Assembly (NCBI RefSeq): GCF_000424005.1
Contig: NZ_AUJB01000008.1
Span: 62,001 to 126,000 of the forward strand
DNA: 64,000 nt
From: Pseudobutyrivibrio ruminis CF1b
GTDB lineage: Bacteria > Bacillota > Clostridia > Lachnospirales > Lachnospiraceae
Reading direction: 5' to 3'
Shown here one piece after another: positions 2,838 to 40,019 of the stretch. A model generated the notes under the pieces. That model was given only the letters and a program-made list of their open reading frames with translations, made no database searches and was not told the DNA's origin. Made by a program: the position numbers and the translations under genes. Numbering within the stretch: position 1 is the first letter of the stretch; each line of letters begins with the position of its first letter.

Positions 2838-2892
2838 TTGACTTATATAGGGGGCGTCGCATATAATCCTATCAACCTAGTAAGTGAGTAGG
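2838..2892 (+). promoter_or_regulatory. Sigma-A promoter with Rrf2-type operator, leader/metK/nif-like operon
   Basis: -35 TTGACT at 2838-2843, an 18-bp spacer and -10 TATAAT at 2862-2867. A palindromic operator follows at once (2868-2892): outer arm CCTAT, inner arm ACCTA, centre G, inner arm TAAGT, outer arm GTAGG. The operator covers the expected transcription start, so bound protein would block initiation. The same arrangement recurs at 19119 and 27802. The Rrf2 protein encoded at 57855 is the likely ligand. Confidence 0.75.
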
Positions 2893-2935
2893 AAATAAAA
2901 ATACTTACAAAAATTATTTGAAAGGAACAGACTAA

Positions 2936-3073
2936 ATGAGAACAACAATTTCTACAGCTATGATGAATACTTGTATGTGTAAGGCCTGCTGTCAGACTTC
3001 TATTTGTTGTACTTGTAAAACAGTCTGTATGAATAAAACTAAAAAAGATATAGGCAAAAGCAATAGGTTTTAA
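2936..3073 (+). CDS. Cysteine-rich leader peptide (45 aa)
   Basis: An ORF with an AAAGGA ribosome binding site 9 nt upstream of its ATG lies between the Rrf2-controlled promoter and an intrinsic terminator. Eight of 45 residues are Cys, clustered at residues 13-31 as CMCKACC, CCTC and a final C; the C-terminal part is Lys-rich. Position and composition fit a regulatory leader peptide whose translation senses Cys-tRNA supply, as in classical amino acid attenuation. I infer this function. Alternatives are a small metal- or thiol-binding protein or a ribosomal peptide precursor, but no maturation gene is adjacent. The Cys codons lie 80 nt or more from the terminator, which is far for textbook attenuation. 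Confidence 0.65.
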   Translation: MRTTISTAMMNTCMCKACCQTSICCTCKTVCMNKTKKDIGKSNRF

Positions 3074-3104
3074 AATATCGTATATACGAATTGATTCTTT
3101 TAAG

Positions 3105-3150
3105 AAGACTTAAGACCAAAGCTTTTAGCTAAGGACCTTAAGTCTTTTTT
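3105..3150 (+). terminator. Leader terminator/attenuator
   Basis: AAGACTTAAG (3105-3114) pairs with CTTAAGTCTT (3137-3146), ending in a six-T run at 3145-3150. It lies 31 nt after the Cys-rich leader ORF and directly before the tRNA-like element. AGACTT at 2994-2999, inside the Cys codon region, is complementary to AAGTCT at 3140-3145 and could compete with the stem. The competing pairing is only six bases and is speculative. Confidence 0.7.
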
Positions 3151-3221
3151 GGTGTCATAGCCGCTGGAAAGGCATAGGCGAGGCATCGCTGAAGTTGGTG
3201 GTTCGAATCCATCTGGCACCA
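3151..3221 (+). tRNA. Atypical tRNA-like element (possibly tRNA-Cys-derived)
   Basis: A tRNA-shaped sequence starts right after the leader terminator. The acceptor stem is GGTGTCA (3151-3157) with TGGCACC (3214-3220) and discriminator A3221. There is a 3-bp D-stem GCC/GGC with a GG-containing loop, and a canonical T-arm whose loop is TTCGAAT (3202-3208) on a 5-bp stem with one G-T pair. The anticodon arm is abnormal: the best fold is GGCGA/TCGCT enclosing only four bases, GGCA, which include GCA (the Cys anticodon), and three bases join it to the D-stem. No CCA is encoded. It could be a degenerate tRNA, or a tRNA mimic with a regulatory role in this sulfur operon. An ordinary translating tRNA looks unlikely. 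Confidence 0.55.
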
Positions 3222-3242: not shown

Positions 3243-3386
3243 ATGGCAGAAGTAAAAGAAGTAACTGAAAATCAACTGGCAAAAATCAAAGATTACATCG
3301 AGTCCATAAAATATGGCTCCGTAAACATCATCATTCAGGATGGCAAAATCATCCAGATAGACAAAAGTGAAAAAATAAGGCTATAA
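3243..3386 (+). CDS. yezD: YezD family small protein (DUF2292)
   Basis: A 47-residue protein with an AAAGGAGA ribosome binding site 4-11 nt upstream of ATG 3243. The core (an N-terminal helix, then YGSVNIIIQDGKIIQIDKSEK) is the YezD/DUF2292 fold: a short helix followed by two beta strands. Members of the family are small soluble proteins often encoded with sulfate and cysteine assimilation genes, but their biochemical role is not settled. It lies between the tRNA-like element and the CUGAC leader before metK. An earlier in-frame ATG at 3195 lies inside the tRNA-like sequence and lacks a ribosome binding site, so it was not used. Confidence 0.8.
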   Translation: MAEVKEVTENQLAKIKDYIESIKYGSVNIIIQDGKIIQIDKSEKIRL

Positions 3387-3507: not shown

Positions 3508-4752
3508 ATGGGAAAGTTATTCACATCAGAATCAGTAACAGAAGGACATCCAGACAAAATTGCAGACCAAATTTCTGATGCAATCCTTGATGAGCTACTT
3601 GCTCAGGATCCATATTCTAGAGTCGCTGCTGAGACAACAGTGGCAACAGGACTAGCTCTTGTTGTAGGAGAGATTACAACAAAGGCTTATGTGGACATTG
3701 CAAAGGTTGCTAAGGAAACAATCAGAGAGATTGGTTATGTAAATAACGTTGATGGATATAATGCAGATTCAATTGCAGTACTTACATCAATTGATGAGCA
3801 GTCAGCAGATATTGCACTTGGAGTTGATAAGGCATTTGAATCAAAACAGGAAGGAGTGACGGAAGATTTTGGAACAGGAGCAGGTGACCAGGGAATCATT
3901 TTTGGATACGCGACCGATGAGACACCAGAATATTTACCACCAGCTATTTCGTTTGCTCATCGTCTTACTAGACAACTTACAAAGGTTCGAAAGGATGGAA
4001 CACTTCCATACCTTAGACCAGATGGAAAATCACAGGTAACTGTGGAATTTGCAGAGGATGGACAGACTGTAAAGAGAGTACATACCATCGTAATTTCAAC
4101 ACAGCATGCAGAGGATGTAACTCTTGAGCAGATTCGTAAAGACGTAATTGAATACGTCATAAAGCCGGTAATTCCAGAAGAACTCCTAGACGAAAACACC
4201 ATATATTATGTAAATCCAACTGGAAGATTTGTTATCGGTGGTCCACAGGGAGATGCAGGACTGACAGGACGTAAGATCATCGTGGATACCTATGGTGGCA
4301 CAGGTCGTCACGGCGGCGGTGCTTTCTCAGGAAAGGATCCAACAAAGGTTGACCGTTCTGCAGCCTACGCAGCTCGCTGGGTGGCAAAGAATCTTGTGGC
4401 TGCAGGATTAGCTAAGAGACTTGAAGTAGAGCTTGCATACGCAATCGGCGTAGCAAAGCCAGTATCAATTGCCGTAGACACATTTGGAACAGGAGTGATT
4501 GATGATGAAAAAATTGTTGAAATTATTGAAAGAGTATTTGATCTCAGACCAGCAGCAATCATCGATGCCCTTAATCTTCGTAGGCCAATCTACAAGCAGA
4601 CTGCTGCTTATGGACATTTCGGCAGGACCGATGTGGACTTACCTTGGGAGCATTTAGATAAGGTGGAGGAGATAAAGAGCTACCTTAATGAGATAAAAGT
4701 TGATTTGGCTGTTCAGTATATTTCTGAGGCAAAGGAAGCAGTACAAGCATAA
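3508..4752 (+). CDS. metK: S-adenosylmethionine synthase
   Basis: Makes SAM from ATP and methionine in the cytosol. The 414-residue length is close to other MetK proteins. Signature segments are [13 protein letters not shown] at the N-terminus, GAGDQGI, and the [22 protein letters not shown] loop region near the middle, written here by its ends: it begins GGTGRHG and ends KVDRS. ATG 3508 has an AAGGAGA site 11 nt upstream; longer in-frame starts overlap the terminator and were rejected. The gene leads a run that contains two radical SAM enzymes and an MTA/SAH nucleosidase, so it probably supplies SAM to that pathway. The leader at 3402 suggests transcription attenuation. Confidence 0.97.
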
Positions 4753-4769: not shown

Positions 4770-5645
4770 ATGGCAGAGAAAATCGGAAAACATATCGCTA
4801 TCTATGGCAAGGGTGGAATTGGAAAATCTACAACAACATCAAATATTAGTGCAGCACTTGCAGAGGCTGGATATAGAGTAATTCAGATTGGATGTGATCC
4901 AAAGAGTGATTCAACAAACACACTTCGTGGAAATAACTACCTTCCAACTGTTCTTGATAGCTTAAGAGAAGGTAATAAAATCCATCTTGATGATATTTCT
5001 GTAAAGGGATTTGGCGGAGTACTCTGTATTGAATCAGGCGGACCAGTTCCAGGTGTTGGCTGTGCAGGACGAGGAATCAATGCAGCTGTAAATCTTCTTC
5101 AGGAGCTCAATCTTTTTGAAGAGTTCAAGCCAGACTACGTTCTTTATGATGTACTTGGCGACGTTGTATGTGGTGGTTTTGCAGTTCCAATCAGAGATGG
5201 AATTACGGACAGAGCTTACGTTGTATCATCTTCAGATTTCATGGCTTTATATGCTGCTAACAATCTTTTCAAGGCCATTAATAAATATGCCCCTACAGGT
5301 GGTGCAAAGCTTGGTGGTGTTATTGCAAATAGTATGAAGCCTGGATACCATCGTGAAATCGTAGAGGATTTTGTAGCAAAGACTGGTACAAGCATTGCAG
5401 GATACGTAAATCGTTCTATCGATGTACAGCAGTCAGAGCTTTATGGTAAGACTGTTATTGAGGCTAAGCCTAATAGTGCGCAGGCTGATATTTATAGAAA
5501 TCTTGCCAAGTACATTGCGGAAAATGAGAATCTTGTGGTTCCTAATCCGCTTGGTTCTGCAGAGCTTAGAGACTGGGCAAGAAACTGGGGAGATCGTATT
5601 TACGATATTGAAAGCGGAGTGGTAGGCGTCGCAGAAGCAATTTAG
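4770..5645 (+). CDS. Nitrogenase reductase-like (NifH/BchL family) ATPase
   Basis: A 291-residue P-loop Fe protein. Walker A is GKGGIGKST at residues 13-21, the DxxGD switch is at 127-131, and the two Cys that bridge the homodimer [4Fe-4S] cluster are Cys98 (GVGCAGRG) and Cys134 (DVVCGG). All residues needed for ATP-dependent electron transfer are present. By family knowledge it reduces the component-1 partners encoded 25 nt downstream (5671, 7066). The cluster has no nifENB or molybdenum genes, so nitrogen fixation is not its role. The sulfur-operon promoter, metK upstream and the ABC transporter downstream point to a reductase acting on a sulfur compound; the substrate is unknown. Confidence 0.93.
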
Positions 5646-5670
5646 TACCCCAGAAAGGAGAACGAGAAGT

Positions 5671-7065
5671 ATGAGTTCTATAGATGATAGAAAAGCATTA
5701 ACAAGAGAAAAACGTCTTAGCTCTCTTAGTCATTTTCATGGAACACTGGAAGGACTGATTGATGAAACCTCTGGAGAAGAGATAAAGCAGAGAATCAGAA
5801 CCTTCTCACAAATACATGATGATGAAACTATCTATGCATTTGATGTTCTTTCAAAGATTGAGGATGCTGCGATTATAGTAAATGGCTCAGTGGGATGTGG
5901 TGCTCTTGGAATATCTCAGTCTAATGTAAAGGACTTTAGCTGGTACTCTACAAATCTTGTTGAGAGGGACACAATACTTGGCGGTGATGATAAGCTTAGA
6001 GAAGCTATTTTAAGAGCCTACGAAGAGAAGCATCCAAAGGTGATATTAATTATTGGTACACCGGTTGTAGCCATAAATAATGATGATATTAATTCGGTTA
6101 TTTTGGAGCTTGAGGATGAGATAGGTATTCCTATTATAAGCATTTATACAGATGGTTTTAAGACCAAGACTCCAGTCACAGGCTACGATATCGTGACACA
6201 CAGCTTGTTAAAATATCTGATTTCTAAAAATGTTGAGCTTAAGGATAACTTCATTAATATAATTTCATTTTCGGAAGACATCGAAGACGTGGCAGCTATA
6301 GCCGAAATTTTCCATGAGCTTGATATTAAATTCCAGGTGATTCCTAGATTCTCAAGCGTAGAGGAAATCAGAAGAGCATCAAGAGCGAGAGCCTCAGTTG
6401 TTCTTAATCCAGAAGAGGGAGACTATCTGGCAAGAGAGCTTGAGGAGCTTTACGAGATACCTTATATAGAGACAGAAGCGCCAATAGGATTTAGAGGAAC
6501 AAAGAATTTTCTACTCAAGATTGCAGCATTCTTAAATATAGAACAGGAAGTTGTTGATTATATCGAGAAGGTAGAGTCTGAGCTTGCTCAGGCAGTTGTA
6601 AAGGATGTGCTTGGAGATAGAAAAATCTTCATAGACGCATCACTTAGCAGGGTGCCGGCATATGCAAGATTATTCACTAATTTAGGTGGAGAAGTGGTAG
6701 GTTTTTCATCACCATTTGTGGATTTAGAGAATAGAAAGCAGCTTAAAAGACTGGATTTTCTACAGAAAAACACAGTTGCAATCATTGGAAATGGCCAGCA
6801 GTTTGAAAAGGCAAATGAATTATCAAAAAATCAGATAGATATTTTCTTCAGTGAAAATTCAGGAAGTTCATTTGCTACGGATGAGGGCGCTGTAGTTATT
6901 TCTACAAAGAATAAGGTAACTTACGGCTTTAAGGGAGTTGAAGTTATTGTTAATTCAATCAGGAAGGTAATTGGTTTCCAAAATAAATACAGACAGAATA
7001 GCAGTTATAAGGATAGCTGGAAGAAACGAAGTGGAAACTGGTATGTAAAGCAGGAGGTAAGTTAG
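5671..7065 (+). CDS. Nitrogenase component 1-like subunit with a single cysteine
   Basis: A 464-residue protein of the NifD/NifK/BchN/BchB superfamily with a good AGAAAGGAG site. It has exactly one Cys, Cys76 (VGCGALG). The segment IIGTPVVAINNDDI occupies the place of the family's CP...GDDI motif but has Thr where Cys would be. No candidate Cys/His pair for an M-cluster was seen. With the three-Cys partner encoded immediately downstream it could supply the fourth ligand of one [4Fe-4S] cluster, as one subunit does in the chlorophyll-pathway reductases. The stop codon touches the next start (7065/7066), so translation is probably coupled. Function inferred; substrate unknown. Confidence 0.85.
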   Translation: MSSIDDRKALTREKRLSSLSHFHGTLEGLIDETSGEEIKQRIRTFSQIHDDETIYAFDVLSKIEDAAIIVNGSVGCGALGISQSNVKDFSWYSTNLVERDTILGGDDKLREAILRAYEEKHPKVILIIGTPVVAINNDDINSVILELEDEIGIPIISIYTDGFKTKTPVTGYDIVTHSLLKYLISKNVELKDNFINIISFSEDIEDVAAIAEIFHELDIKFQVIPRFSSVEEIRRASRARASVVLNPEEGDYLARELEELYEIPYIETEAPIGFRGTKNFLLKIAAFLNIEQEVVDYIEKVESELAQAVVKDVLGDRKIFIDASLSRVPAYARLFTNLGGEVVGFSSPFVDLENRKQLKRLDFLQKNTVAIIGNGQQFEKANELSKNQIDIFFSENSGSSFATDEGAVVISTKNKVTYGFKGVEVIVNSIRKVIGFQNKYRQNSSYKDSWKKRSGNWYVKQEVS

Positions 7066-8502
7066 ATGGCAAATATTATTAAGAATCCCAGAAATGGATG
7101 TGCCCTTCATGGAGCTTTACAGACAGTTCAGGAAATTCAGGGAGTAGTTCCTGTGGTTCATGCCAATGCAAGCTGTGGAGTAATCAATTATTTGGCCAAT
7201 TCCAAAACATCAGGTGGAAATCCAAGATTTTCCGGCTATTCAACACCAGGAACAGCAGCTCAGGAACGTCATGTTATTTTCGGTGGAGCGTCACGACTTA
7301 GAGAGCAGATTAAAAACACAGTAAAGGTTGTTGATGGTTCTCTTTATATAATCCTCAATAGCTGTGAGTCAGCTATGGTAGGTGATGACGTAGATGCCAT
7401 GACAAGAGAGATCGTTGAACAAGGCGAGCCAGTTGTAGATACATTGATAGCTGGATTCAACGGTAGTGCTTATTACGGATATGAACATGTGTTAGCTGAC
7501 ATTTTCAAATCAGTTTATGAGCTTAAAAAGAATGAAGGTGAAAAGAATCCACGTCTTGTAAATATATTCGGAATTATTCCCCAGAAGGATCCCTATTGGC
7601 AGGGGAATCTTGAGGAGATAACAAGAATTCTAAATGGTGTTGGATTGGAAACAAATATCTTCTTTGGTGCTGATGGGGGCACTGAGGATATAGAAAATGC
7701 AAGGAACGCTGCTCTTTCAATTACATTTGGAAGATGGGGGGAACTACCTGCAAAGGTATTGAATGAAAAATTTGAGATTCCAGTAATTCAAAGAGCAGCA
7801 TTACCTATAAATGCTGATGATGAGAGAGCACTTATTGAAGGAATTGAAGAATATATCACTATCGATCAGGAGACAAAAGAGCACTTTTTAGAGAAGGAAC
7901 AGAAATACGAGCTAAATTACTGGTCGAGAGTCAGAGATGAAATTATTGAGAATGATCTTGGAAGAACTGTAGCTATTGTTGGCGAAGAGGAGCATGTAAT
8001 CAGATTAGGGAAGCTGGTTCAGGAGGTTTTTGGCGCAGAGGTAGTTGCAGCGGTATTAACAGATGCATTGAAAAAGGATGAAGAACATACTTTGGATAAT
8101 GAAGAAGTTCTTAATTCTATAGCAAAGAACATTTATAAGACATCTGACCAGAAGGACATCAACGATATTATCAGACAGTCAAAGGCAGAATTGGTTATTG
8201 GAAGTTCTTTAGAACAGCATGTTGCTGATAAACATGGTATTCCACTTGTGGAAGCATCATATCCTGTTTATCACAAAACAATTCTTAATCATTCATCCAT
8301 AGGTGTGCGAGGTATAGTTGGGGTTATTGCTGAATATATAACAGCAGTTAAGCAGGCTGATAAAGAAAAAGAAGAAAAACTTCAGAACAAGCTGAAGGAG
8401 TTAAAGGGACAAAATGTCTGGCTGGAGCATTCTTATAAGAAGAGTCACAACGTGAAGCAGGTCGGTCTGGTTTCACAGGGTACAGTTAGAGAATCTATTT
8501 AA
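7066..8502 (+). CDS. Nitrogenase component 1-like subunit with three cluster cysteines
   Basis: A 478-residue superfamily member. Its only three Cys are Cys12 (NGCALHGA), Cys37 (NASCGV) and Cys100 (LNSCESAMVGDDV), the N-terminal Cys triad that carries the P-cluster-type [4Fe-4S] ligands in this superfamily. Cofactor-binding Cys and His of true nitrogenase are lacking. The C-terminus ends in a Lys/Glu-rich helix and a tail. The likely enzyme is a heterotetramer with the 5671 product, reduced by the 4770 Fe protein. The radical SAM gene follows 28 nt later. Related enzymes reduce tetrapyrroles or cleave C-S bonds (methylthio-alkane reductase); the latter suits the sulfur context, but this is inference. 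Confidence 0.87.
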   Translation: MANIIKNPRNGCALHGALQTVQEIQGVVPVVHANASCGVINYLANSKTSGGNPRFSGYSTPGTAAQERHVIFGGASRLREQIKNTVKVVDGSLYIILNSCESAMVGDDVDAMTREIVEQGEPVVDTLIAGFNGSAYYGYEHVLADIFKSVYELKKNEGEKNPRLVNIFGIIPQKDPYWQGNLEEITRILNGVGLETNIFFGADGGTEDIENARNAALSITFGRWGELPAKVLNEKFEIPVIQRAALPINADDERALIEGIEEYITIDQETKEHFLEKEQKYELNYWSRVRDEIIENDLGRTVAIVGEEEHVIRLGKLVQEVFGAEVVAAVLTDALKKDEEHTLDNEEVLNSIAKNIYKTSDQKDINDIIRQSKAELVIGSSLEQHVADKHGIPLVEASYPVYHKTILNHSSIGVRGIVGVIAEYITAVKQADKEKEEKLQNKLKELKGQNVWLEHSYKKSHNVKQVGLVSQGTVRESI

Positions 8503-8530
8503 ACACGGTTAATTTAAAAGGAGGATTATT

Positions 8531-9799
8531 ATGTCTAGGGCTATTACTAGAGAGGAATTATTTAAAGAGATTGAGTTGAGCAACATTATTGCAAATGAAG
8601 GTATATATATTTCACCAGAAGTAATCAGCACACTTGATTTTGAAAATCATGTTCAGGAGCAGATGAGAACATGCTTTGATATGAATCATGAGACTTACAC
8701 AAAAACAAAGCTTCCTACTTCTATTCGTCTATCAAGTAACTTTAGATTAGGACTTCCTTATAGACATAATTCAAGATTTTCTGTTCAGCATGAAAATGGA
8801 AAGTATTATCTTTTAGAGGGAAACAATCAGATTGATGAAGTTACTTTTGTGGAAAAGCCAAAATTCTACAATCATAAAACTTCTGATGGTGTAGATATGA
8901 AGACCATCGCTAACGAGGTTGGTAAGACAAAGGTAACAGTTGCCTACAGTAACGAATGTGCTCTCAAGGATAAGGGACTTGACTGCAAATTCTGTAACAT
9001 CAACGCAACTAAGAGCAGATTTGCGGATTTACAGGGAATCTCTTGGAAGACACCTTACCAGATTGCTGAGACATATGCTAAGGCCAGAGAGGAAGGCTAT
9101 GAATCTATCACTATCACAGGTGGATTTGTTCCAGAGCGTCGTGAAGTAGAATACTATATTGATGTGGCTGAGACAATTCAGGATTTAACAGGTCTTCAGG
9201 ACTTTGGTGGAACAGCCTGCGTAGGTGCACCTAGTGATCTTTCAGTAATCGAAAAATATAAGGAAGCAGGCTATAGGGCTATTTCTACTAACCTTGAGGT
9301 ATGGGACGAGAACTTCTTCAAGACAATCTGCCCTGGTAAGGAACAGATTTGTGGTGGAAGACAGAATTGGATTAACGCGCTTAAGCATGAGGTTGAAGTA
9401 TTCGGTAAAGGAAATGTTCGCTCATTTTTTGTTGCAGGTATTGAACCAAAATCTACACTTCTTGAAGGTATTGAATATCTTACAGAGCTTGGTGTAGTGG
9501 CAATTCCTCTTCATTGGATTCCAAATCCAGGTTCAGCACTTGAAGGACACAGAGCTCCAACTCCAGAGTGGTATTTGGATTTATATCAGAAGACATATAC
9601 ATTGCTCAAGAAGAATGGTCTTACTCATAGAGATTTGTATCATTCAGCAAACGTTGAGAATTCAATCTTTGATTACTTCTATGATTTAGATGGTGATCAT
9701 CTTGATATTCCAAAGCACGAGGCTGACAGAGTTCACTTTGTTGGAGAAGATAGCACAGTAGATAATAGAGAAGAAGAATTAATAGAGAAAACAGCATAA
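8531..9799 (+). CDS. Radical SAM protein, unusual CX8CX2C motif (paralog 1)
   Basis: A 422-residue protein with cluster-binding Cys143, Cys152 and Cys155, spacing C-x8-C-x2-C instead of the usual C-x3-C-x2-C. The downstream barrel segments (ITITGGFVPERRE, FFVAGIEPKSTLLEGIEYL, PLHWIPNPGS) resemble the biotin synthase/ThiH side of the superfamily. About 140 residues precede the barrel. A second, very similar copy is encoded at 15332. It may mature a cofactor for the nitrogenase-like enzyme or act on its substrate or product. MetK upstream and the nucleosidase at 13117 would supply SAM and remove 5'-deoxyadenosine. The CUGAC leader starts 3 nt after the stop. Confidence 0.88.
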   Translation: MSRAITREELFKEIELSNIIANEGIYISPEVISTLDFENHVQEQMRTCFDMNHETYTKTKLPTSIRLSSNFRLGLPYRHNSRFSVQHENGKYYLLEGNNQIDEVTFVEKPKFYNHKTSDGVDMKTIANEVGKTKVTVAYSNECALKDKGLDCKFCNINATKSRFADLQGISWKTPYQIAETYAKAREEGYESITITGGFVPERREVEYYIDVAETIQDLTGLQDFGGTACVGAPSDLSVIEKYKEAGYRAISTNLEVWDENFFKTICPGKEQICGGRQNWINALKHEVEVFGKGNVRSFFVAGIEPKSTLLEGIEYLTELGVVAIPLHWIPNPGSALEGHRAPTPEWYLDLYQKTYTLLKKNGLTHRDLYHSANVENSIFDYFYDLDGDHLDIPKHEADRVHFVGEDSTVDNREEELIEKTA

Positions 9800-9801
9800 G
9801 G

Positions 9802-9846
9802 CTGACCAGAAAACTGGAGGCTTCCTCAAAAAGAGGGAGCCTCTTT
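9802..9846 (+). promoter_or_regulatory. CUGAC-hairpin-terminator leader, copy B
   Basis: CTGAC at 9802-9806, first hairpin CCAG-AAAA-CTGG (9806-9817), then GAGGCTTCCTC pairing with GAGGGAGCCTC and a TTTGCTTT tract. Compared with copy A, the second and third stem positions changed from TA to CA with the partner changing from TA to TG, a compensatory change. It lies between the radical SAM gene and the substrate-binding protein gene, so it may tune expression inside the operon. Confidence 0.65.
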
Positions 9847-9864
9847 GCTTTACAGGAGGAAAAT

Positions 9865-10953
9865 ATGAAAAAGAATTACTTAAAGAAATTTTTGGCTATA
9901 ACAGCAGCATTATCTATGACCGTAGGATTTGTAGGTTGTGGAAATGAAGGGGCTGATACTATAGAGGCTGGTTCAAAATTAAAGTCGGATGAGGAAACGA
10001 AAGTAGAAATCGATCCTGAAAATTTCAATATTGATGATGTAGGAGAATTTACTATCAGAGTAGGTGTGAATTCTGGTGACGGAAATCAATATCTAAAGAT
10101 TTTAGATAATCACACAGGCTATCTGAAGGATAGAGGTATTAATCTTGAAACTACAGAGTTTGCAGCTGGTATTAATACAATTGATGCCATTACTACAGAT
10201 CAATTAGATGTAGGTCTTTTTGCAGATTATGCAGGTGTAAATAGAATTGGAAATACTTTAGCAGATACACAGCTTAGAGCTTTTGCCACTATCAGAAAAT
10301 CTAATGCATATAATCTTTATGTAAATCCAGATACTATTAAGGAGCCAAAGGATTTGGAAGGGCATACAGCAATCTCAATGGCAGGTGTTGTATTTGAATA
10401 TGATTATGGAAAATTATTCGAAACCTATGATATTGATAAGTCAAAGGTAGAATTAGTAAACGTATCAAGTACACAGGAGGCAATTGCATTAGCTGCTACA
10501 AACGGAGCAGACAGTTTTTGGGTAAATGATCAGATTGCTCCTAAGTTTGAAGAGGTTGGTTGGAAGCCTCTTGTAAATATTTCTGATGTTGACGCAACTA
10601 TGTATACATTCTTAGTAGCAAACAATTCATATTTGGAGGAGCACAAGGCAGAGGTTGCAAAGTTTTTAAAGGTTAGTGATGAAGCCTTTGATTATATTGA
10701 TGAGAACCTTGATGAGTTTGCAGGCTGGGTTCAGGCTGATATAGGTCTTGATAAAGATTTGGTTATAAGAGGCTGGAAGGAAGCTACACATAATTACACA
10801 TTCCCACAGGATGCTTATGAAGATCTGCTCAAGGTTGAAGACTGGTGTTATAAGAATGGTAATTTCCCAACAGAATACGATTTTACTGATTACATTAACA
10901 CAGATGCCTTGGCTTTGGTTTCACCAGACGAGGTAACCTGGCAGGCAAAATAG
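9865..10953 (+). CDS. ABC transporter substrate-binding lipoprotein, SsuA/TauA/NMT1 type (1)
   Basis: A 362-residue lipoprotein. The signal peptide ends in a lipobox with Cys25 (GFVGC). The mature fold is the type-2 periplasmic-binding fold of the sulfonate/nitrate/taurine class (RVGVNSGDGNQYLKILD, the ETTEFAAGINTIDAI segment, then LFADYAG). It precedes its permease by 9 nt and its ATPase. A close paralog is at 16669. The cognate substrate is probably the organosulfur compound handled by the nitrogenase-like enzyme; it is not identifiable by sequence alone. Confidence 0.9.
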   Translation: MKKNYLKKFLAITAALSMTVGFVGCGNEGADTIEAGSKLKSDEETKVEIDPENFNIDDVGEFTIRVGVNSGDGNQYLKILDNHTGYLKDRGINLETTEFAAGINTIDAITTDQLDVGLFADYAGVNRIGNTLADTQLRAFATIRKSNAYNLYVNPDTIKEPKDLEGHTAISMAGVVFEYDYGKLFETYDIDKSKVELVNVSSTQEAIALAATNGADSFWVNDQIAPKFEEVGWKPLVNISDVDATMYTFLVANNSYLEEHKAEVAKFLKVSDEAFDYIDENLDEFAGWVQADIGLDKDLVIRGWKEATHNYTFPQDAYEDLLKVEDWCYKNGNFPTEYDFTDYINTDALALVSPDEVTWQAK

Positions 10954-10962
10954 GAGGTCCCT

Positions 10963-11724
10963 ATGAAGAATATTACGAGAAAAATTATTAAAAGCGGAAT
11001 CATTTCCTGGGCTGTACTATTTGTGATTTGGGGAATAGTGTCACTGTTTTACGCAGAATCATTTTTTCCAAGTCCAGTAGAGACTTTTGTAGGTTTTAAA
11101 GAAATCGTGCTAAATGGAAAGCTTTGGGAGGATATAAGTATTAGTGTTCAGCGTGTGCTTTTAGGCTGGAGTAGAGCACTACTAATTGGAATTCCTGTGG
11201 GACTGCTGATTGGTAGATTCAGAATTGTGAACTGGTTTATAGAGCCATTTATAAATTTCTTCAGATTTGTACCAGCTATTGGTTTTTTGACTCTCTTTCT
11301 GATGTGGTTTGGTGTAGGTGAAGAATCAAAACTGATTTTGATTACTTATGCATCTATTTTTCCAATCATTATAAACACAATAGCTGGTGTAAATACTATC
11401 AATCCAGTGAAGTATCAGGCAGCAGAGTCTCTCGGAGCAAATAGATTTCAGTCCTTTATCACTGTAACTGTTCCAGGAGCAGTACCTAGTATTTTGACAG
11501 GCGCAAGACTTGGTCTTAGTACAGCCATTATTTCCATTGTAGGAGCTGAAATGCTGGCAGCTAATAGTGGACTTGGTTACCTGGTTTATACATCACGACT
11601 TTATTACAGAACTGATTGGATTTTTGTAGGAATCGTAACTCTTGGTGTTTTAGGATTTTTTGCTGATAAATTTCTTAGATTTGTAGCAAAAAAATCACTT
11701 AAGCATTATGGCGTTACAGGATAG
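10963..11724 (+). CDS. ABC transporter permease, SsuC/TauC type
   Basis: A 253-residue integral membrane protein with about six hydrophobic helices and the EAA loop characteristic of importers (EAAxxxGAN-like: QAAESLGANRFQSFITVTVPGA). It forms the channel of the importer encoded by 9865-12651 and would be a homodimer in the cytoplasmic membrane. The AGGAGGTCC site overlaps the preceding stop region. It is the only permease in the nitrogenase-like block, so both substrate-binding paralogs probably share it. Confidence 0.92.
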   Translation: MKNITRKIIKSGIISWAVLFVIWGIVSLFYAESFFPSPVETFVGFKEIVLNGKLWEDISISVQRVLLGWSRALLIGIPVGLLIGRFRIVNWFIEPFINFFRFVPAIGFLTLFLMWFGVGEESKLILITYASIFPIIINTIAGVNTINPVKYQAAESLGANRFQSFITVTVPGAVPSILTGARLGLSTAIISIVGAEMLAANSGLGYLVYTSRLYYRTDWIFVGIVTLGVLGFFADKFLRFVAKKSLKHYGVTG

Positions 11725-11733
11725 GAGGAGCTT

Positions 11734-12651
11734 ATGTCTAATAATACTAAAATTAAAATTGAACATATCAGCAAAAAATATGATGTAGAGAACAAAGCTC
11801 TTTTATTCACAAAGGGTAACAGTGCGCATGATAATTTCGTGGGACATGAAACTGACTATGTGTTGAAGGATGTAAATCTGGAAATCCAGGAGGGAGAATT
11901 TCATATTTTCCTTGGAGCAAGTGGATGCGGTAAAACTACACTCTTAAATATTGTAGCAGGCTTTTTAAATAAGACAGAGGGTTCTGTAAAGCTTGATGGC
12001 AAAGAGATTTCTGGACCTGGCTCTGAGAGAGGTGTTGTTTTCCAAAATGCAGACTCAGCTATTTTCCCATGGCTTACAGTCCAGAAAAATGTAGAGTATG
12101 GACTGAGAATGCGTGGTGTGAAAAAGGACGAGAGAAAAAAGATTGCTTCAGATGCTATTGAGCTGGTAGGTCTTAAGGGACATGAGCACAAGTATCCGGA
12201 TGAACTTTCAGGTGGTATGAAGCAAAGAGTCCAGATCGCCAGAAGTATTGCTGCAAACCCAGAGGTTCTTATTATGGATGAGCCATTTGGAGCTCTTGAT
12301 GCACAGACAAGACGAACACTTCAGGACGAGCTTATTAACATTTGGAAAAAGACTGGAAAGACAATTCTTTTTGTTACTCACGATATAGCAGAAGCAGTTT
12401 ATTTAGGTGAGAATATCAGTATTTTCTCGGTGGCTCCAGATGCAAGTATCGTTGATAAAATTACCGTTCCTTATAAGTATCCAAGAGATGTTAATGATCA
12501 AAGAGTAGGGGAGTTTATAAAATACACTACTGAGCAGCTTGAGAATGCTATAAGAGCATCAAAGGCAAAGCACGAAGGCTTACAGAAGGCAGAAAATGAG
12601 GAAGAAGCTGTTGAAAATGAAGTAGCAGAGGCTAATTCTGTAGCCGTATAA
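11734..12651 (+). CDS. ABC transporter ATPase, SsuB/TauB type
   Basis: A 305-residue nucleotide-binding subunit. Walker A is GASGCGKTT, signature LSGGMKQR, Walker [14 protein letters not shown] and H-loop VTHDIAEAV. Compared with usual SsuB/TauB (about 250 residues) it has an insertion near the N-terminus (about residues 18-40, before the [11 protein letters not shown] strand) and an acidic Glu/Ala-rich tail. AGGAGG precedes the ATG. It energises the import of the compound bound by the 9865 and 16669 lipoproteins. Confidence 0.93.
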
Positions 12652-12675
12652 GGGAAGAGACAGGAGGATAATATT

Positions 12676-13107
12676 ATGGCAAATTTTAAAGATATAAAGG
12701 ATTATATTTATGAGAATAAGAGCTTGGTTCTTTCTACTGTAGATGAGGCAGGAAACCCGCAGCTTAGACATATTGGTGGATACAATATCGACGGCAAGGA
12801 CATAGTTTTTCAAACAACAAAAAATACTGATAAGACAAAGGATATTGCTCACAACAATAATGTGGCTCTTTTATTTCAGCATGAGGGACAGCAGGCTCCA
12901 AAGAATGTAACCATTTATGGACGTGCGTTAGAGCTTGATGAGCTTGATGCAAAGAAGGCAGCCAGCCTTATTAAAGAGAGACGTCCGCAGCTCAATTATG
13001 ATCCTCAGGTAAATGTGATTTTTAAAGTAGAGACGGAATCAGTAAAGGTTCTTGATTTTCAGGCAGACCCAAAGCAGGTAGTAGTTCCAGCAAGCCAGCT
13101 GGTATAA
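12676..13107 (+). CDS. Pyridoxamine 5'-phosphate oxidase-like FMN-binding protein
   Basis: A 143-residue split-barrel flavoprotein (helix FKDIKDYIYENKSLVLSTV..., then strands NPQLRHIGGY and KDIVFQTTKNTDKT). Small proteins of this fold bind FMN, F420 or heme and act as oxidoreductases; most are not true PdxH enzymes. It sits in the nitrogenase-like operon between the ATPase and nucleosidase genes with short gaps and an AGGAGG site. It might supply electrons to, or protect, the Fe-S enzymes. Specific role unknown. Confidence 0.8.
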   Translation: MANFKDIKDYIYENKSLVLSTVDEAGNPQLRHIGGYNIDGKDIVFQTTKNTDKTKDIAHNNNVALLFQHEGQQAPKNVTIYGRALELDELDAKKAASLIKERRPQLNYDPQVNVIFKVETESVKVLDFQADPKQVVVPASQLV

Positions 13108-13116
13108 GGTGGTGGC

Positions 13117-13830
13117 ATGAAAAAAGTATTGATTGTGAGTGCATTGCCTCAGGAGACAGAATTCATAGACGAATATTTGAGAGACAATACTGACTGGATT
13201 AAACAGGATGAGGGAGAATACGTAAATACGATAAAAGATATTTATGTTTATGTGAAGGTCTTAGGCGTAGGAAAAGTCAATGCTGCATTTCAAACAGCAG
13301 ATGCAATAAATGATGTTAATCCGGACTTAATTGTCAATGTTGGTGTGGCAGGAGGCTTAGCTGATGATTTGGACAGAGGGTCATTAGCAATTGGTACAGA
13401 TTATGTGCAGGTAGATATGAGAACATTGATACCAGAAAACAGTCCAGTTATTGATCCTACTCCAAGGTATCTTCTCGAGGGAATAATTCAGGTGGCAAAG
13501 GCTAGCGAGATTAGTTTCAAAGCAGGAAGGATTGCAACAGGTGATTTTGTTCTCTATGAGAGAAAAAAGAGAAGAGCTATAAAAAAGGAATTCAAGCCGA
13601 TTGCATTTGATATGGAAACAGCTGCTGTAGCTCAGGTGGCAACTGCCAAGAAAATTGATTTTATTGGCATTAGAAGTTTTTCTGATATGGCAAATAAAAA
13701 GACCATTGGTTTATTAAGTAAGAAAAAGCAGATAGACAGTGCTGAGCTTAAATTAAGACGGGAGATGTTTAAACTTCCAGCAAAACTAGTTATTGATTAT
13801 CTGGAACAGGAGGATGGTAAGACAGCATGA
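13117..13830 (+). CDS. 5'-methylthioadenosine/S-adenosylhomocysteine nucleosidase family protein
   Basis: A 237-residue nucleosidase. The family catalytic residues are in place: Glu13 in the N-terminal strand region (PQETEF), the ribose-binding Met166-Glu167 pair (FDMETAA) and the general acid Asp190 (RSFSDMA). GVAGGLADD matches the phosphorylase-fold loop. Such enzymes hydrolyse MTA, SAH and also 5'-deoxyadenosine, the product of radical SAM reactions. In this operon it probably removes product and salvages the ribose or methylthio moiety. Its end overlaps the MATE gene by 4 nt. It is somewhat divergent from typical MtnN, so the substrate range is uncertain. Confidence 0.88.
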   Translation: MKKVLIVSALPQETEFIDEYLRDNTDWIKQDEGEYVNTIKDIYVYVKVLGVGKVNAAFQTADAINDVNPDLIVNVGVAGGLADDLDRGSLAIGTDYVQVDMRTLIPENSPVIDPTPRYLLEGIIQVAKASEISFKAGRIATGDFVLYERKKRRAIKKEFKPIAFDMETAAVAQVATAKKIDFIGIRSFSDMANKKTIGLLSKKKQIDSAELKLRREMFKLPAKLVIDYLEQEDGKTA

Positions 13831-15179
13831 AAAGAGATATGACATCTGGAAATGTTACAGTTTCACTGCTGTATTTTATCATTCCCTTGACTCTTGGTAA
13901 TATTCTGCAACAGCTGTACAACGCGGTGGATACCTATATCGTAGGGAGGTATGTAGGGAGCATGGCGTTGTCAGCTGTTGGCTCTGTAAGTAATCTTATT
14001 TTCATTTTTAACGCCATAGTGCTTGGCTTAAAGGCTGGAATTTCAGTTATCTGTTCCGAGAGCTATGGGCGAAGAGACGAAAAGGATTTCAATATCAGCA
14101 GAGAAGTAGGTTTTTTACTTATAGTAGCAACAGGAGTCATATGTACTGTAATTGGTATAACAAAGGCTACAAATATCATGGAATTTATAAAGGTTCCGGA
14201 TGTGATTTTTCAGGATGCATATGGTTATTTAAGAATTATATTGATAGGTTATCCTTTTGTATTTCTCTTTAATTATGGCATTGCAATCACGCAGGCAATG
14301 GGAAATTCTAATATTACTTTTATCGCATTACTTTCAAGCACTATATGTAACATTTTACTTGATTTGGTATTGATTTGTATTTTTGGCTTAGGTGTAAACG
14401 GCGCTGCAATTGCTACTATAATTTCGCAGGCTCTTTCAATGATAATCGTATTTACGAATTTGATAGCTACCGTGCCGCGTTCAAAATTTTCTTTTGAAGC
14501 TGGTGTGGTATCAGAAAAGCTAAAGGACATTCTTAGAGTTTCATTTCCATCCATTTTGCAGCAGGGAATACTTTCCCTGGGAATCATTTTAGTATCAGCT
14601 CTAATAAATCAATGTGGTACAGCGATGATTGCAGGGGTATCCATTGGTGGAAAAATCGATGGAATAATATCGCTCCCGATTATTACCATTGCAGAGGCGT
14701 TGGCTGTATTTACAGCTCAAAATATTGGTGCAGGTAAACCAGAGAGAATAGAAGAAGGCGTAAAGGCAGCAATTAAGCTTTGTGTGATTATGGTAAGTTT
14801 CTATTCTGTACTGATTTATTATCAGGGTCGTGAAATAATAAAGCTTTTCTTAGATGAATATGATGAAGCCATCGTTTCCGAGGGAATGAATTATATGGTT
14901 TCCATTTTGATAATGATGGTATTTATGATTTTCTTTAGATGTTTTATAGGAGTATATACAGGTAAGAAGGAAATGAAATTTGTCCTTTTAGCCTTTACTT
15001 TAAATATTATCAGCAGAGTATCATTTGCCTATGCTACATTTCCAGAATTAGGAAAATGGTCAGTGTACATTGCTAATCCATTAAGTGTATTGGTGGGAGC
15101 TATAGTGATTATGAGCGTTTATGGAATACAAAAATATGGAGAGCATTTTCAGGTGAATGCAAAACTGGAAATTAATTAA
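13827..15179 (+). CDS. MATE family multidrug/metabolite efflux transporter
   Basis: A 450-residue membrane protein with about 12 predicted helices and the MATE N-terminal hallmark (PLTLGNILQQLYNAVDTYIVGRYVG region, written by its ends: PLTLGN and IVGRYVG). ATGA overlap with the nucleosidase gene implies coupled translation. MATE proteins are Na+- or H+-driven exporters in the cytoplasmic membrane. In this operon it may export a by-product of the nitrogenase-like pathway, for instance a thiol or a dealkylated product. That is inference. Confidence 0.9.
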   Translation: MKRDMTSGNVTVSLLYFIIPLTLGNILQQLYNAVDTYIVGRYVGSMALSAVGSVSNLIFIFNAIVLGLKAGISVICSESYGRRDEKDFNISREVGFLLIVATGVICTVIGITKATNIMEFIKVPDVIFQDAYGYLRIILIGYPFVFLFNYGIAITQAMGNSNITFIALLSSTICNILLDLVLICIFGLGVNGAAIATIISQALSMIIVFTNLIATVPRSKFSFEAGVVSEKLKDILRVSFPSILQQGILSLGIILVSALINQCGTAMIAGVSIGGKIDGIISLPIITIAEALAVFTAQNIGAGKPERIEEGVKAAIKLCVIMVSFYSVLIYYQGREIIKLFLDEYDEAIVSEGMNYMVSILIMMVFMIFFRCFIGVYTGKKEMKFVLLAFTLNIISRVSFAYATFPELGKWSVYIANPLSVLVGAIVIMSVYGIQKYGEHFQVNAKLEIN

Positions 15180-15241
15180 GTGACAGGAGGATGTAGAAAA
15201 GATATCCTAGTTTCTTGATTTACAGATGAAAATAAAAAATA

Positions 15242-15301
15242 CTGACTAGAAAACTAGAGGTTTAAAACAGGTTATAAAACCATGTTTTAAACCTCTTTTT
15301 T
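15242..15301 (+). promoter_or_regulatory. CUGAC-hairpin-terminator leader, copy C
   Basis: CTGAC at 15242-15246, hairpin CTAG-AAAA-CTAG (15246-15257), then a perfect 13-bp terminator stem AGAGGTTTAAAAC / GTTTTAAACCTCT and a run of T. It precedes the second radical SAM gene (start 15332). The 62 nt between the MATE stop and this element show no clear promoter. Confidence 0.68.
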
Positions 15302-15331
15302 ATATAAACAAACAGTAAAAGGAGGAGAACC

Positions 15332-16600
15332 ATGTCAAGAGCAATAACAAGAGAAGAATTGTACAGGGAAATTGAGCTTGGTAACCAGATTTCAAGTGAG
15401 GGCATCTATATTAGTCCGGAAGTAATTGCAACACTTGATTTTGAAAATGAAATTCAGGAACAGGTGCGAACATGTTTTGATATGAATCATGAAACCTATA
15501 CCAAGACAAAGCTGCCAACATCTGTAAGATTATCTAGCAATTTCAGAGTAGGGCTACCTTACAAACACAATTCGAGATTTTCTATTCAGCATGAGAATGG
15601 GAAATATTATCTTTTGGAAAAGGGCAATCAGCTTGATGAAATTACATTTGTTGAGAAGCCTAAATTTCACAATTTTAAAACATCAGATGGCATTCCAATG
15701 AAGACCATTGCTGCTGATGTTGGAAAATCCAAAATTTCTGTTGCCTACAGTAACGAGTGTGCATTAAAGGATAAGGGATTGGATTGTAAATTCTGCAACA
15801 TTAACGCTACTAAGAGCCGTTTTGCAGATTTGCAGGGAATATCATGGAAAACACCTGTACAGATTGCGGAAACATATGCAAAGGCAAGAGAAGAAGGATA
15901 TCAGGCTATTACCATTACAGGTGGATTTATTCCAGAGCGACGTGAGGTAGAGTATTACATCGATGTTGCTGAGGCTATTCAGGATTATACAGGTCTAAAG
16001 GAATTTGGAGGTGCAGCTTGTGTTGGTGCTCCAGCAGATTTATCTGTAATAGAGAAATATAAGGAAGCTGGTTACAGTGCAATTTCATCCAACATGGAGG
16101 TGTGGGATGAGAATATCTTCAAGACAATTTGCCCTGGCAAGGAACAAATCTGTGGCGGTAGACAAAATTGGATAAATGCCCTAAAGCATGAGGTTGAAGT
16201 ATTTGGAAGAGGAAATGTTCGCTCATTCTTTGTGGCTGGAATTGAACCTAAATCAACACTACTTGAAGGTATTGAATATTTGACAGAACTTGGTGTTGTA
16301 GCAATTCCACTTCATTGGCTGCCTAATCCTGGCTCAGAGCTTGAGGGACATAGAGCTCCAGATCCAGACTGGTATTTAGATTTATATCAAAAGACATACA
16401 CGCTTCTCAGAAAAAATGGAATCACTCATAGAGATTTATATAGCTCAGTTAATGGAGAAAACAGTATCTTTGATAACTTCTATGATTTGGATGGAGATCA
16501 TCTTGATATTCCAAGGCATGAGGAGGACAGAGTTCACTTTGTGAATGAAGGCAATACGGTAGAGAATATAGACACCATTAAGGAAATAAAAACAGCATAG
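15332..16600 (+). CDS. Radical SAM protein, CX8CX2C motif (paralog 2)
   Basis: A 422-residue near-twin of the 8531 product: same length, same Cys143/Cys152/Cys155 spacing and long identical stretches around the cluster motif and in the C-terminal half. Differences are spread through the N-terminal 100 residues and the last 25. Together with the following CUGAC leader and substrate-binding protein it forms a duplicated cassette. Conservation of both copies argues that each is used, perhaps for different substrates or growth states. Confidence 0.88.
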   Translation: MSRAITREELYREIELGNQISSEGIYISPEVIATLDFENEIQEQVRTCFDMNHETYTKTKLPTSVRLSSNFRVGLPYKHNSRFSIQHENGKYYLLEKGNQLDEITFVEKPKFHNFKTSDGIPMKTIAADVGKSKISVAYSNECALKDKGLDCKFCNINATKSRFADLQGISWKTPVQIAETYAKAREEGYQAITITGGFIPERREVEYYIDVAEAIQDYTGLKEFGGAACVGAPADLSVIEKYKEAGYSAISSNMEVWDENIFKTICPGKEQICGGRQNWINALKHEVEVFGRGNVRSFFVAGIEPKSTLLEGIEYLTELGVVAIPLHWLPNPGSELEGHRAPDPDWYLDLYQKTYTLLRKNGITHRDLYSSVNGENSIFDNFYDLDGDHLDIPRHEEDRVHFVNEGNTVENIDTIKEIKTA

Positions 16601-16601
16601 G

Positions 16602-16650
16602 CTGACCAAAAAGACTGGAGGCTTTCTTTTTTGAAAAGAAGGTCTCCTTT
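16602..16650 (+). promoter_or_regulatory. CUGAC-hairpin-terminator leader, copy D
   Basis: CTGAC at 16602-16606 directly follows the radical SAM stop. A CCA/TGG stem with a 7-nt loop is the shortest first hairpin of the four copies. The terminator stem pairs GAGGCTTTCTTTT with AAAAGAAGGTCTC (G-U pairs included) and is followed by CTTTTA. The position relative to its flanking genes mirrors copy B. Confidence 0.6.
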
Positions 16651-16668
16651 TATATTAGGAGGTATGGT

Positions 16669-17757
16669 ATGAAAAAGAATTACTTGAAGAAAATACTTGC
16701 AGTGACAATGACTATTGCAATTAGTGCAGGATTTGCAGGTTGTGGCAACGAAGGTGTGGATACTATTGAGGCAGGTTCTGCTTTGAAAAATGAAGTGAAT
16801 GAAGAAGCAAGCATTGATGCAGACTCATTTAATATAGATGATGTGGGCGAAATTACACTTAGGGTTGGAGTATGCTCAGGAGATCCTAATCAATATCTAA
16901 AAGTTTTAGATAATCATACTAATTTCTTAAAAGACAGGGGGATTAATTTAGAGACTACTGAATTTGCAGCAGGAATAAATACTATTGATGCTATTACAAT
17001 CGACCAGCTGGATATAGGTAATTTTGCAGATTATGCGGGTATTAATAGAATTGGTAATACATTGGCTGATACAGATTTAAGAGCTTTTACTATGACAGGT
17101 ATCAATAAAAATTTCGTTTTGTATGTCAATCCCGAGCACATAAAAACAGCCAAAGATTTAGAGGGGGCAGTTCTTATTTCACATGCAGGTGTTGTCGTTG
17201 AATACGATTATGGTAAATTGGCTGAGACATATGATTTGGATCCAGACAAACTGGAATATACAAATGTATCGAGTCCTCAGGAGGCACTTGCTCTTGCAAT
17301 ATCAAATTCAGGTGATGCTTATTGGGCTGGGAAACAGGTTCAACCAAAATTTGAAGAGGCTGGTTGGGTACCATTCACAAGTATAGTGGATGTAGGGGCT
17401 CCAATGTATGGCTTCCTTGTAGCAAATAATAAGTTCCTTGAGGAGCATAAGGCAGAGGTGGCAAAATATTTGGCAGTCAGTGAAGAAGGATTTGCATATA
17501 TAACAGAACATTTAGATGAATTTGCAGGATGGGTAGAGGCAGACCTTGGTCTTAGAAAGGACTTAGTAATCTCGGGATGGCAGGAAAGCACCCATGATTA
17601 TGGATTTCCGCAGGAGGCATATGAGGATTTGTACAGTGTTGAAGAATGGTGCTACAAAAATGGAAATTTCCCAACACAGTACGACCCAGCAGATTTCATC
17701 AACACCGATGCGCTAGCTTTATATAAGCCAGATGCTGTTACCTGGGAGAGAAAATAA
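16669..17757 (+). CDS. ABC transporter substrate-binding lipoprotein, SsuA/TauA/NMT1 type (2)
   Basis: A 362-residue paralog of the 9865 product with the same length and lipobox Cys25 (GFAGC). The binding-site region differs: NSGDGNQ is CSGDPNQ here, and the ATIRKSN stretch of copy 1 is replaced. The ligand specificity may therefore have shifted. No permease or ATPase follows, so it probably docks on the transporter encoded at 10963-12651. It is the last gene of the nitrogenase-like block; a structured RNA and terminator follow. Confidence 0.88.
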   Translation: MKKNYLKKILAVTMTIAISAGFAGCGNEGVDTIEAGSALKNEVNEEASIDADSFNIDDVGEITLRVGVCSGDPNQYLKVLDNHTNFLKDRGINLETTEFAAGINTIDAITIDQLDIGNFADYAGINRIGNTLADTDLRAFTMTGINKNFVLYVNPEHIKTAKDLEGAVLISHAGVVVEYDYGKLAETYDLDPDKLEYTNVSSPQEALALAISNSGDAYWAGKQVQPKFEEAGWVPFTSIVDVGAPMYGFLVANNKFLEEHKAEVAKYLAVSEEGFAYITEHLDEFAGWVEADLGLRKDLVISGWQESTHDYGFPQEAYEDLYSVEEWCYKNGNFPTQYDPADFINTDALALYKPDAVTWERK

Positions 17758-29771: not shown

Positions 29772-29773
29772 GG

Positions 29774-29800
29774 ATAGAAACCGCCAAATGGCGTTTCTAT
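29774..29800 (+). promoter_or_regulatory. Intercistronic stem-loop before the encapsulin gene
   Basis: ATAGAAAC and GCC pair with GGC and GTTTCTAT around an AAAT loop with one bulged C. No T-run follows at once. It may protect or insulate the highly expressed shell mRNA. Confidence 0.55.
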
Positions 29801-29838
29801 ATAAACCCCATATTATTTTTTTAAGGAGGATAAGAAAA

Positions 29839-40017: not shown

Positions 40018-40019
40018 TG

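Follow-up and report, generated by a model that had tools for sequence, protein, structure and literature searches.

What does the nitrogenase-like gene cluster at 4770-17757 of a 64-kb stretch of Pseudobutyrivibrio ruminis CF1b (hereafter the window, to whose numbering all positions and strands refer) act on, and which of its products faces the substrate? A first-pass annotation, made from the sequence, had proposed it as a candidate new organosulfur-cleaving system. Open reading frame (ORF) and domain scans recovered every gene named there as an intact ORF on the + strand, preceded by yezD and metK (Table 1), and this part of the description thus stands. On its sequence, the locus is of the isethionate reductase (Isr) kind, as judged from the cysteine pattern of its proteins and from the clade of its D protein, the latter placed through stand-ins. 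Isr, that is, IsrBHDK with the importer SsuCAB, was described in Rhodobacter capsulatus in 2024 (mSphere 2024; PMC11423573), so the system is not new. The general idea of the annotation fits the evidence: import of an organosulfur compound, release of its sulfur by the nitrogenase-like proteins together with a radical S-adenosylmethionine (SAM) protein, participation of MetK and a nucleosidase, and sulfur control. Its claim of a new system had to be given up. We consider it rather probable that the cluster is an Isr-type operon for sulfonate desulfonation, in which one core of a NifH-like ATPase (H) and two component-1 subunits (D and K) serves interchangeable radical SAM proteins (B) matched to their importers, with B facing the substrate and SAM as co-substrate. 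What is new here is the modularity of B and importer around a constant HDK core, and the association of metK and a nucleosidase with Isr.

Assignment of the locus to the isethionate reductases

Related loci were collected by a scan that required one of two short D motifs; 83 relatives were found and 80 kept, giving 78 loci, and because of this requirement the sample leans to motif-bearing D proteins. The D alignment contained 52 dereplicated Isr rows, 22 rows of other nitrogenase-like proteins and 14 nif rows. The published IsrD was reported to keep one of three P-cluster cysteines, with Arg and Pro/Ser at the other two positions, and the published IsrK to have Cys 12, 37 and 99 in R. capsulatus (PMC11423573). 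In our alignment, the middle cluster Cys of D was present in 51 of the 52 Isr rows (Ala in one; C76 in the window), the column of nif Cys154 held Pro in 50 and Ser in two (P131 in the window), and the column of nif Cys62 held Arg in 51 with one gap (R43). At the cofactor-Cys column (NifD Cys275), all 22 other nitrogenase-like rows and all 14 nif rows had Cys; Asn, Asp, Lys, Phe or Ser stood there in 50 of the 52 Isr rows, those whose residues were read (Asn246 in the window). Cys12, Cys37 and Cys100 of K were found in 74, 75 and 77 of 77 rows, the remainder being gaps, and Cys143-X8-Cys152-X2-Cys155 of B in 89, 88 and 89 of 89 sequences, respectively. The Cys pair of H (98 and 134 in the window) occurred in all 73 rows, but is common to NifH-like proteins and not specific to Isr.

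In a maximum-likelihood tree of 88 D-type proteins (outgroup row L021 left out; R. capsulatus and BchLNB not included), the 52 Isr rows fell on one side of a 100/99 branch and MarD (PDB 9d9u) on the other. The Isr side included Rhodovulum and Rhodopseudomonas, the stand-ins that represent the clade of the R. capsulatus IsrD. Thus, the comparison with MarHDK for which the first-pass annotation had called separates the window D from MarD and places it among alphaproteobacterial loci of the R. capsulatus type. The annotation had named placement in a characterized clade with another function as evidence against its proposal, and this is largely what was found, in a tree that contained no R. capsulatus sequence. 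The likeness to methylthio-alkane reductase that it had drawn does not hold, as the window D does not group with MarD, and for this reason sulfonates are expected as substrates rather than thioethers or heterocyclic thiols.

It should be noted that some observations weigh against the assignment. Arg at the column of nif Cys62 does not discriminate, being also present in 20 of the 22 other nitrogenase-like rows; the first Cys of those rows lies eight columns past the Arg, where the Isr rows have Asp (41 of 52) or Ser (7 of 52). The telling parts are therefore the loss of Cys and the Pro/Ser. In addition, R. capsulatus Isr was found neither among the 78 loci, nor in two overlapping samples of 295 and 389 genomes around Rhodovulum, nor in plasmids, and the clade test ran on stand-ins because the R. 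capsulatus sequences were not in the collections searched. The Rhodovulum strictum locus (L139) has the order B-H-D-K, with genes for a molybdopterin protein, a flavin mononucleotide (FMN) reductase, a luciferase-like monooxygenase, a permease and an NMT1 binding protein further 3'. Its content is similar to that of the R. capsulatus locus, but its gene order differs and the molybdopterin protein is extra.

A thioether reductase resembling methylthio-alkane reductase appears very improbable. Among the relatives of D with a solved structure, MarD scores highest (126 bits; we take PDB entries 9d9u and 9fmg, both titled Nitrogenase, to be MarD), but it lies outside the Isr clade and, where its segment covers them, retains those cluster and cofactor cysteines which are missing from the window D. 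B has no NifB model match, whereas MarB has been described with all NifB motifs (PMC12552129). The Mar-type candidate was therefore rejected by D clade and cysteines. Two further candidates were also rejected: a nitrogenase or NifEN remnant, with D and K far under the NifD, NifE, BchN and BchB cut-offs, and a NifB-like maturase as the identity of B, with no NifB model match for either copy (B1 or B2) and with structural (Foldseek) matches to LipA, HydE, PylB, BioB and similar proteins. A profile search of the whole genome revealed no NifB above the cut-off (best 29 bits), and all NifH-family matches other than the Isr NifH were below 40 bits. This agrees with the absence of NifB as first annotated; as to NifE and NifN, also listed as absent, the genome showed a single D-type place plus K among the matches listed.

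Proposed exchangeable pairs of radical SAM protein and importer

Across the 78 loci, H, D and K were nearly always single. The exceptions were K, present twice or in two pieces in L070, L134 and L135, H, present twice in L132, and contigs too short for all three. Counted on six-frame segments, as were H, D and K, a B of at least 330 amino acids occurred once in 45 loci, twice in 17, three times in two, four times in one and not at all in 13; some B match was present in 57 of the 60 loci that measure 12.9 kb or more. In the 20 loci with several B's, 36 of 44 B's had their nearest relative in another locus. Three large subfamilies can be distinguished among the B proteins. The two pairs of radical SAM and binding protein in the window represent an internal duplication (84.6% identity between B1 and B2, 68.8% between the binding proteins SBP1 and SBP2), and with 153 synonymous and 65 non-synonymous codon differences, B1 and B2 are read as an old duplicate under selection.

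We then correlated the distances among B proteins with those among their neighbors, using 63 B's in 46 loci with a substrate-binding protein (SBP), or 56 after shared ones were removed. These correlations rest mostly on low-GC loci, because the ORF caller takes wrong-strand frames in the GC-rich Azoarcus, Rhodovulum and Anaeromyxobacter. Over the 56 pairs, r was 0.74 between B and SBP, 0.36 between B and D and 0.35 between SBP and D; the partial correlation of B and SBP given D was 0.70, and none of 999 permutations was as high. The correlation of B with SBP reached 0.96 among 278 pairs with similar D, and between 10 multi-module loci, compared in pairs, the centred r was 0.91 over 180 cells. 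After dereplication to 35 pairs in 30 loci, the correlation was 0.47 and the partial 0.44, again with 0 of 999 permutations as high. Given D, B was also correlated with the permease (0.58, 51 pairs), the nucleosidase (0.57, 20 pairs) and the MATE exporter (0.80, 14 pairs); the corresponding values were -0.07 for H (39 pairs) and 0.19 for K (45 pairs). This pattern suggests that the radical SAM partner and its matching importer can be exchanged together and determine the compound that the system uses. No account of such a modular architecture was found in the literature searched, bioRxiv preprints and supplements lying outside that search.

Several results speak against this interpretation, and some of them would be expected if the coupling were genetic linkage only, with operon blocks moving jointly and B a generic helper for any Isr core. 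B adjoins the binding protein with a median gap of 72 bases (1.7 kb for the FMN protein), dereplication drops the partial correlation from 0.70 to 0.44, and in only 14 of the 23 locus pairs whose B's differ clearly was the nearest-B pair also the nearest-SBP pair. Moreover, B follows the ATPase weakly (partial 0.35, 45 pairs); among pairs with similar D, K also correlates with B (0.43) and with SBP (0.46); the low partials of B with H and K are in part inherent, since both of these core proteins follow D; and two of seven binding proteins beyond those of the window reach the SsuA_fam cut-off in an NCBIfam scan. Part of the co-variation of B and importer may thus stem from linkage and from their transfer in a single block. 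Linkage as the whole explanation is nevertheless improbable: the FMN protein, which also lies in the cluster though at a greater distance, follows D (0.86) rather than B (partial 0.04, 16 pairs), divergent B's that are mostly nearer to a B of another locus are kept beside a single core, and the coupling remains high in multi-module locus pairs.

Site of carbon-sulfur bond cleavage

In R. capsulatus, isrBHDK and SsuCAB were reported to be needed for anaerobic use of isethionate as a sulfur source, and these seven genes give R. sphaeroides isethionate-dependent growth; the role of IsrB was called unclear (PMC11423573). The discoverers proposed HDK as the site of both sulfonate binding and reductive C-S cleavage, with B activating or accessory. 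This proposal agrees with the reports that an isethionate lyase replaces DK and so bypasses its loss, that D/K is where substrate reduction takes place in other nitrogenase-like enzymes, and that all four isr genes are needed (PMC11423573). However, D lacks two of three cluster cysteines as well as the cofactor Cys, the importer type is followed weakly by D and strongly by B, a single core coexists with up to four B's, and the lyase bypass cannot separate a catalyst from an electron donor, being compatible with cleavage on B or on DK. We therefore regard cleavage by HDK as rather unlikely. Since D is without the cofactor Cys and only weakly tied to the importer type, a cleavage site on B is favored over one on DK. 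It is possible, and we propose it tentatively, that the published roles should be reversed and that desulfonation is carried out by the IsrB-type radical SAM proteins themselves, a family of interchangeable enzymes matched to their importers and consuming one SAM per turnover, with HDK as a general ATP-driven electron donor. If so, a single nitrogenase-like complex would power a whole group of radical SAM enzymes.

SAM supply and the fold of B

We compared the 60 Isr loci that reach 12.9 kb (12.9-21.9 kb) with 36 control loci of 13-20 kb, which surround nitrogenase-like D genes of other kinds in the same phylum; the controls were the 36 non-Isr among 38 regions, of similar but not matched length. 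metK was present in 35 of the 60 Isr loci (20 of 41 after dereplication) and a nucleosidase gene in 22 (10 of 41), and neither was found in any of the controls. The position of metK varied: it preceded H in some loci, and in others it followed K or the importer or lay between H and D. On the other hand, 25 and 38 of 60 Isr loci lack metK and the nucleosidase, respectively, and by record title 38 of the 39 loci with metK belonged to Bacillota, the remaining one to Myxococcota. No account of this association was found in the literature searched, again with bioRxiv preprints and supplements outside the search, and the main text of PMC11423573 contains none of the words paralog, copies, metK, deoxyadenosine or nucleosidase. 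The genome has three other PNP-family matches (best 172 bits), and the Isr nucleosidase is therefore an additional one. It scores under the curated cut-offs (112.6 versus 169 bits for PRK05584; 66.7 versus 73.8 for TIGR01704) and would be a relative of the canonical MTA/SAH nucleosidase.

An AlphaFold model of B, built from 42 sequences, had a mean per-residue confidence (pLDDT) of 93 and a pTM of 0.91. Its Foldseek matches in the PDB were lipoyl synthase (LipA), HydE, PylB, biotin synthase (BioB) and ThiH, with a query TM of about 0.4; these enzymes generate a 5'-deoxyadenosyl radical. Searching the PDB with the B sequence returned nothing but unrelated molecules at E-values of 0.11 and 0.44.

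Proposed mechanism

The operon is probably switched on when sulfur is short. The SsuABC-like importer would bring in a small sulfonate, the substrate predicted for this locus, which B would recognize and bind, making a substrate radical with SAM. The NifH-like H, spending ATP, would drive low-potential electrons into D/K, so that HDK might serve as a shared ATP-driven reductant for B; D/K should hold one simple Fe-S cluster because of their four cysteines. The C-S bond would then break, and sulfite would leave and pass to the sulfite reductase encoded at 40 kb. SAM would be made by MetK and consumed at each turnover as the co-substrate of B, and the nucleosidase would remove 5'-deoxyadenosine. 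One core could serve several B's in this way, each travelling with its own binding protein and permease, and this arrangement around one core points to B as the substrate-facing part.

Distribution of Isr-type loci

In the family of the window, a D match at 1e-30 was found in 45 of 397 genomes, six of them of Isr type (34-100% identity). B matches at E≤1e-40 occurred in six of the 397 genomes, the same six that have an Isr-type D. The other 39 D-type matches had 26-33% identity, and those aligned keep the cluster and cofactor cysteines. In 299 genomes of the phylum, every other match was at most 35% identical among the matches listed. Judged by record title, the Isr-like D proteins came from Bacillota, Spirochaetota, Pseudomonadota, Bacteroidota, Chlorobiota, Chloroflexota, Myxococcota, Fibrobacterota and candidate division FCPU426, and metagenome-assembled genomes (MAGs) account for many of these finds. 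Several Azoarcus MAGs carry an Isr-type D (L100, L102, L105-L108, L113 and L116); five of these were included in the tree, where they cluster with L103 among the Bacillota rows, and a transfer between phyla is probable on this topology.

Nitrogenase-like proteins of other kinds, with the cluster cysteines retained (loci L006-L012, L040-L063 and L164-L199; 26-33% identical to D) occur in 39 of the 397 family genomes, sometimes several per genome; a few group with MarD and most do not. In addition, an arylsulfotransferase-like protein (PF05935) was observed in five Isr loci (L074, L101, L110, L115 and L119), and a short-chain dehydrogenase cluster in eight, one member of each having been scanned.

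Gene content and regulatory elements of the window

The features of the window are listed in Table 1; the cut-off of NF045502 variant_rSAM (NCBIfam) is 125 bits.

Table 1. Position, strand and supporting evidence of the features of the window discussed here.
Feature	Position	Strand	Evidence or remark
Operator-like element CCTATCAACCTAGTAAGTGAGTAGGA	2868..2893	+	Less exact matches also ahead of further sulfur genes
Leader ORF of 45 codons, rich in Cys; may act as a cysteine attenuator	2936..3073	+	Read by eye
Terminator-like hairpin followed by T run, between leader ORF and yezD	3102..3149	+	Inverted repeat
tRNA-like element, 4-nucleotide loop replacing the anticodon loop, encoded CCA	3151..3221	+	Rfam tRNA 35.7 bits
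yezD (DUF2292)	3243..3386	+	
metK, SAM synthetase	3508..4752	+	
isrH-type NifH-like ATPase	4770..5645	+	PF00142, 320 bits; Cys98, Cys134
isrD-type component-1 subunit	5671..7065	+	PF00148, 204 bits; single cluster Cys76
isrK-type component-1 subunit	7066..8502	+	PF00148, 213 bits; Cys12, Cys37, Cys100
isrB-type radical SAM protein, copy 1 (B1)	8531..9799	+	NF045502 variant_rSAM, 454 bits; C143-X8-C152-X2-C155
NMT1/SsuA-type substrate-binding protein, copy 1 (SBP1)	9865..10953	+	SsuA_fam, 64 bits, under cut-off of 163.5
ATP-binding cassette (ABC) permease	10963..11724	+	SaoP/TauC/SsuC-like, under the cut-offs of those models
ABC ATPase	11734..12651	+	Taurine/Sao/nitrate-type, under the cut-offs of those models
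FMN split-barrel (PNPOx-like) protein	12676..13107	+	
Additional MTA/SAH-nucleosidase-like protein	13117..13830	+	Proposed 5'-deoxyadenosine clearance
MATE exporter	13827..15179	+	
isrB-type radical SAM protein, copy 2 (B2)	15332..16600	+	NF045502 variant_rSAM, 458 bits; 84.6% identity to B1
Substrate-binding protein, copy 2 (SBP2)	16669..17757	+	Assigned by 68.8% identity to SBP1
Sulfite-reductase-type protein (NIR_SIR)	40017..40892	+	Could take up released sulfite

The promoter element common to sulfur operons that had been annotated earlier, as a putative Rrf2 operator, was recovered. Its 20-base form CCTAGTAAGTGAGTAGGAAA occurs at 2876 and 36832 with at most three mismatches, against an expectation of 0.00. 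A looser 26-position pattern (up to six mismatches allowed; chance expectation computed for the 20-base form only) matches the + strand at 2868 (0 mismatches), 19149 (3), 27831 (4), 36824 (6), 38736 (4) and 58413 (6). Four of these six matches precede identified genes, namely metK-Isr (2868), a sulfate-type importer (19149), ThiF/encapsulin/desulfurase genes (27831) and a Cys/Met pyridoxal-phosphate (PLP) enzyme gene (38736). On the basis of domain assignment, the importer 3' of the Isr genes is of the sulfate ABC type (SBP_bac_11 binding protein, TOBE ATPase), and on the same side of the Isr genes lie genes with FAD-binding, Fer4, PAPS_reduct and GTP_EFTU domains, which we take for sulfate activation and reduction genes. 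The leader ORF and hairpin before yezD-metK-Isr resemble a cysteine attenuator, which is a possible function; a small ORF with at least five Cys was found in 11 of 20 loci (L064-L083), nine of the 11 being alike by eye.

The tRNA-like element had no ARAGORN call and a fold stability that did not exceed that of shuffled sequences (z -0.99); it was also present in five of six relatives scanned and absent from L074. The genes 3' of the match at 27831 (28314-32383) encode a ThiF-rhodanese protein, a type 2A (SrpI) encapsulin and a cysteine desulfurase. The name 'major membrane protein I' presumably is an older one for the SrpI-type encapsulin family. A protein of that name and a cysteine desulfurase were reported among the isethionate-induced genes of R. 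capsulatus (PMC11423573). Upstream (5') of the operon, the + strand at 24-2084 encodes a large acidic protein with a C-terminal hydrophobic stretch, of surface type by eye.

Implications and comparison with known systems

Nitrogenase-like enzymes that cut C-S bonds have been recognized only recently. The Isr paper has since been cited (PMC11659671 and PMC13067680), and a gut study of 2025 drew on Isr profiles in its annotation (PMC12330013). One core with one to four exchangeable modules of B and importer makes the role of IsrB directly testable. From the modular arrangement it is also predicted that isethionate is not the only sulfonate used by Isr systems, and bacteria of rumen, gut and termites could be grouped according to the sulfonates that may serve them as sulfur source without oxygen.

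Among the known systems, MarBHDK resembles the window in combining nitrogenase-like H, D and K with a radical SAM gene and in cleaving C-S bonds (PMC12552129). It differs in the separate clade of MarD, in the P-cluster and cofactor cysteines kept there, and in the NifB motifs of MarB, as discussed above. The isethionate sulfite-lyase IslAB likewise releases sulfite from isethionate independently of O2 and has a radical SAM partner, but it was described as a glycyl-radical enzyme with a radical SAM activase and without a nitrogenase-like part (PMC11423573). BchLNB is, like the window system, a two-component nitrogenase-like reductase, whose catalytic part was reported to carry a 4Fe-4S cluster without FeMo-co ligands (PMC11423573). 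As a dark-operative protochlorophyllide reductase, it has a different substrate, and the window D and K are far under the BchN and BchB cut-offs. To our knowledge, it also has neither a radical SAM partner nor an importer.

The closest counterpart is the Isr system of R. capsulatus, which has the same gene set, the same cysteine pattern of H, D and K and a sulfonate-type importer, and probably belongs to the same clade, as judged by the stand-ins. It was reported to be induced within a sulfur-related regulon, and the window genes correspondingly lie behind a promoter element shared with other sulfur genes. In contrast to the order B-H-D-K described for R. capsulatus, the order in the window is H-D-K-B. 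Compared with that system as outlined in its published description (PMC11423573), the window has two pairs of B and binding protein and includes metK, a nucleosidase, an FMN split-barrel protein and a MATE exporter in the cluster, and its relatives show modules of B and importer exchanged around a constant core.

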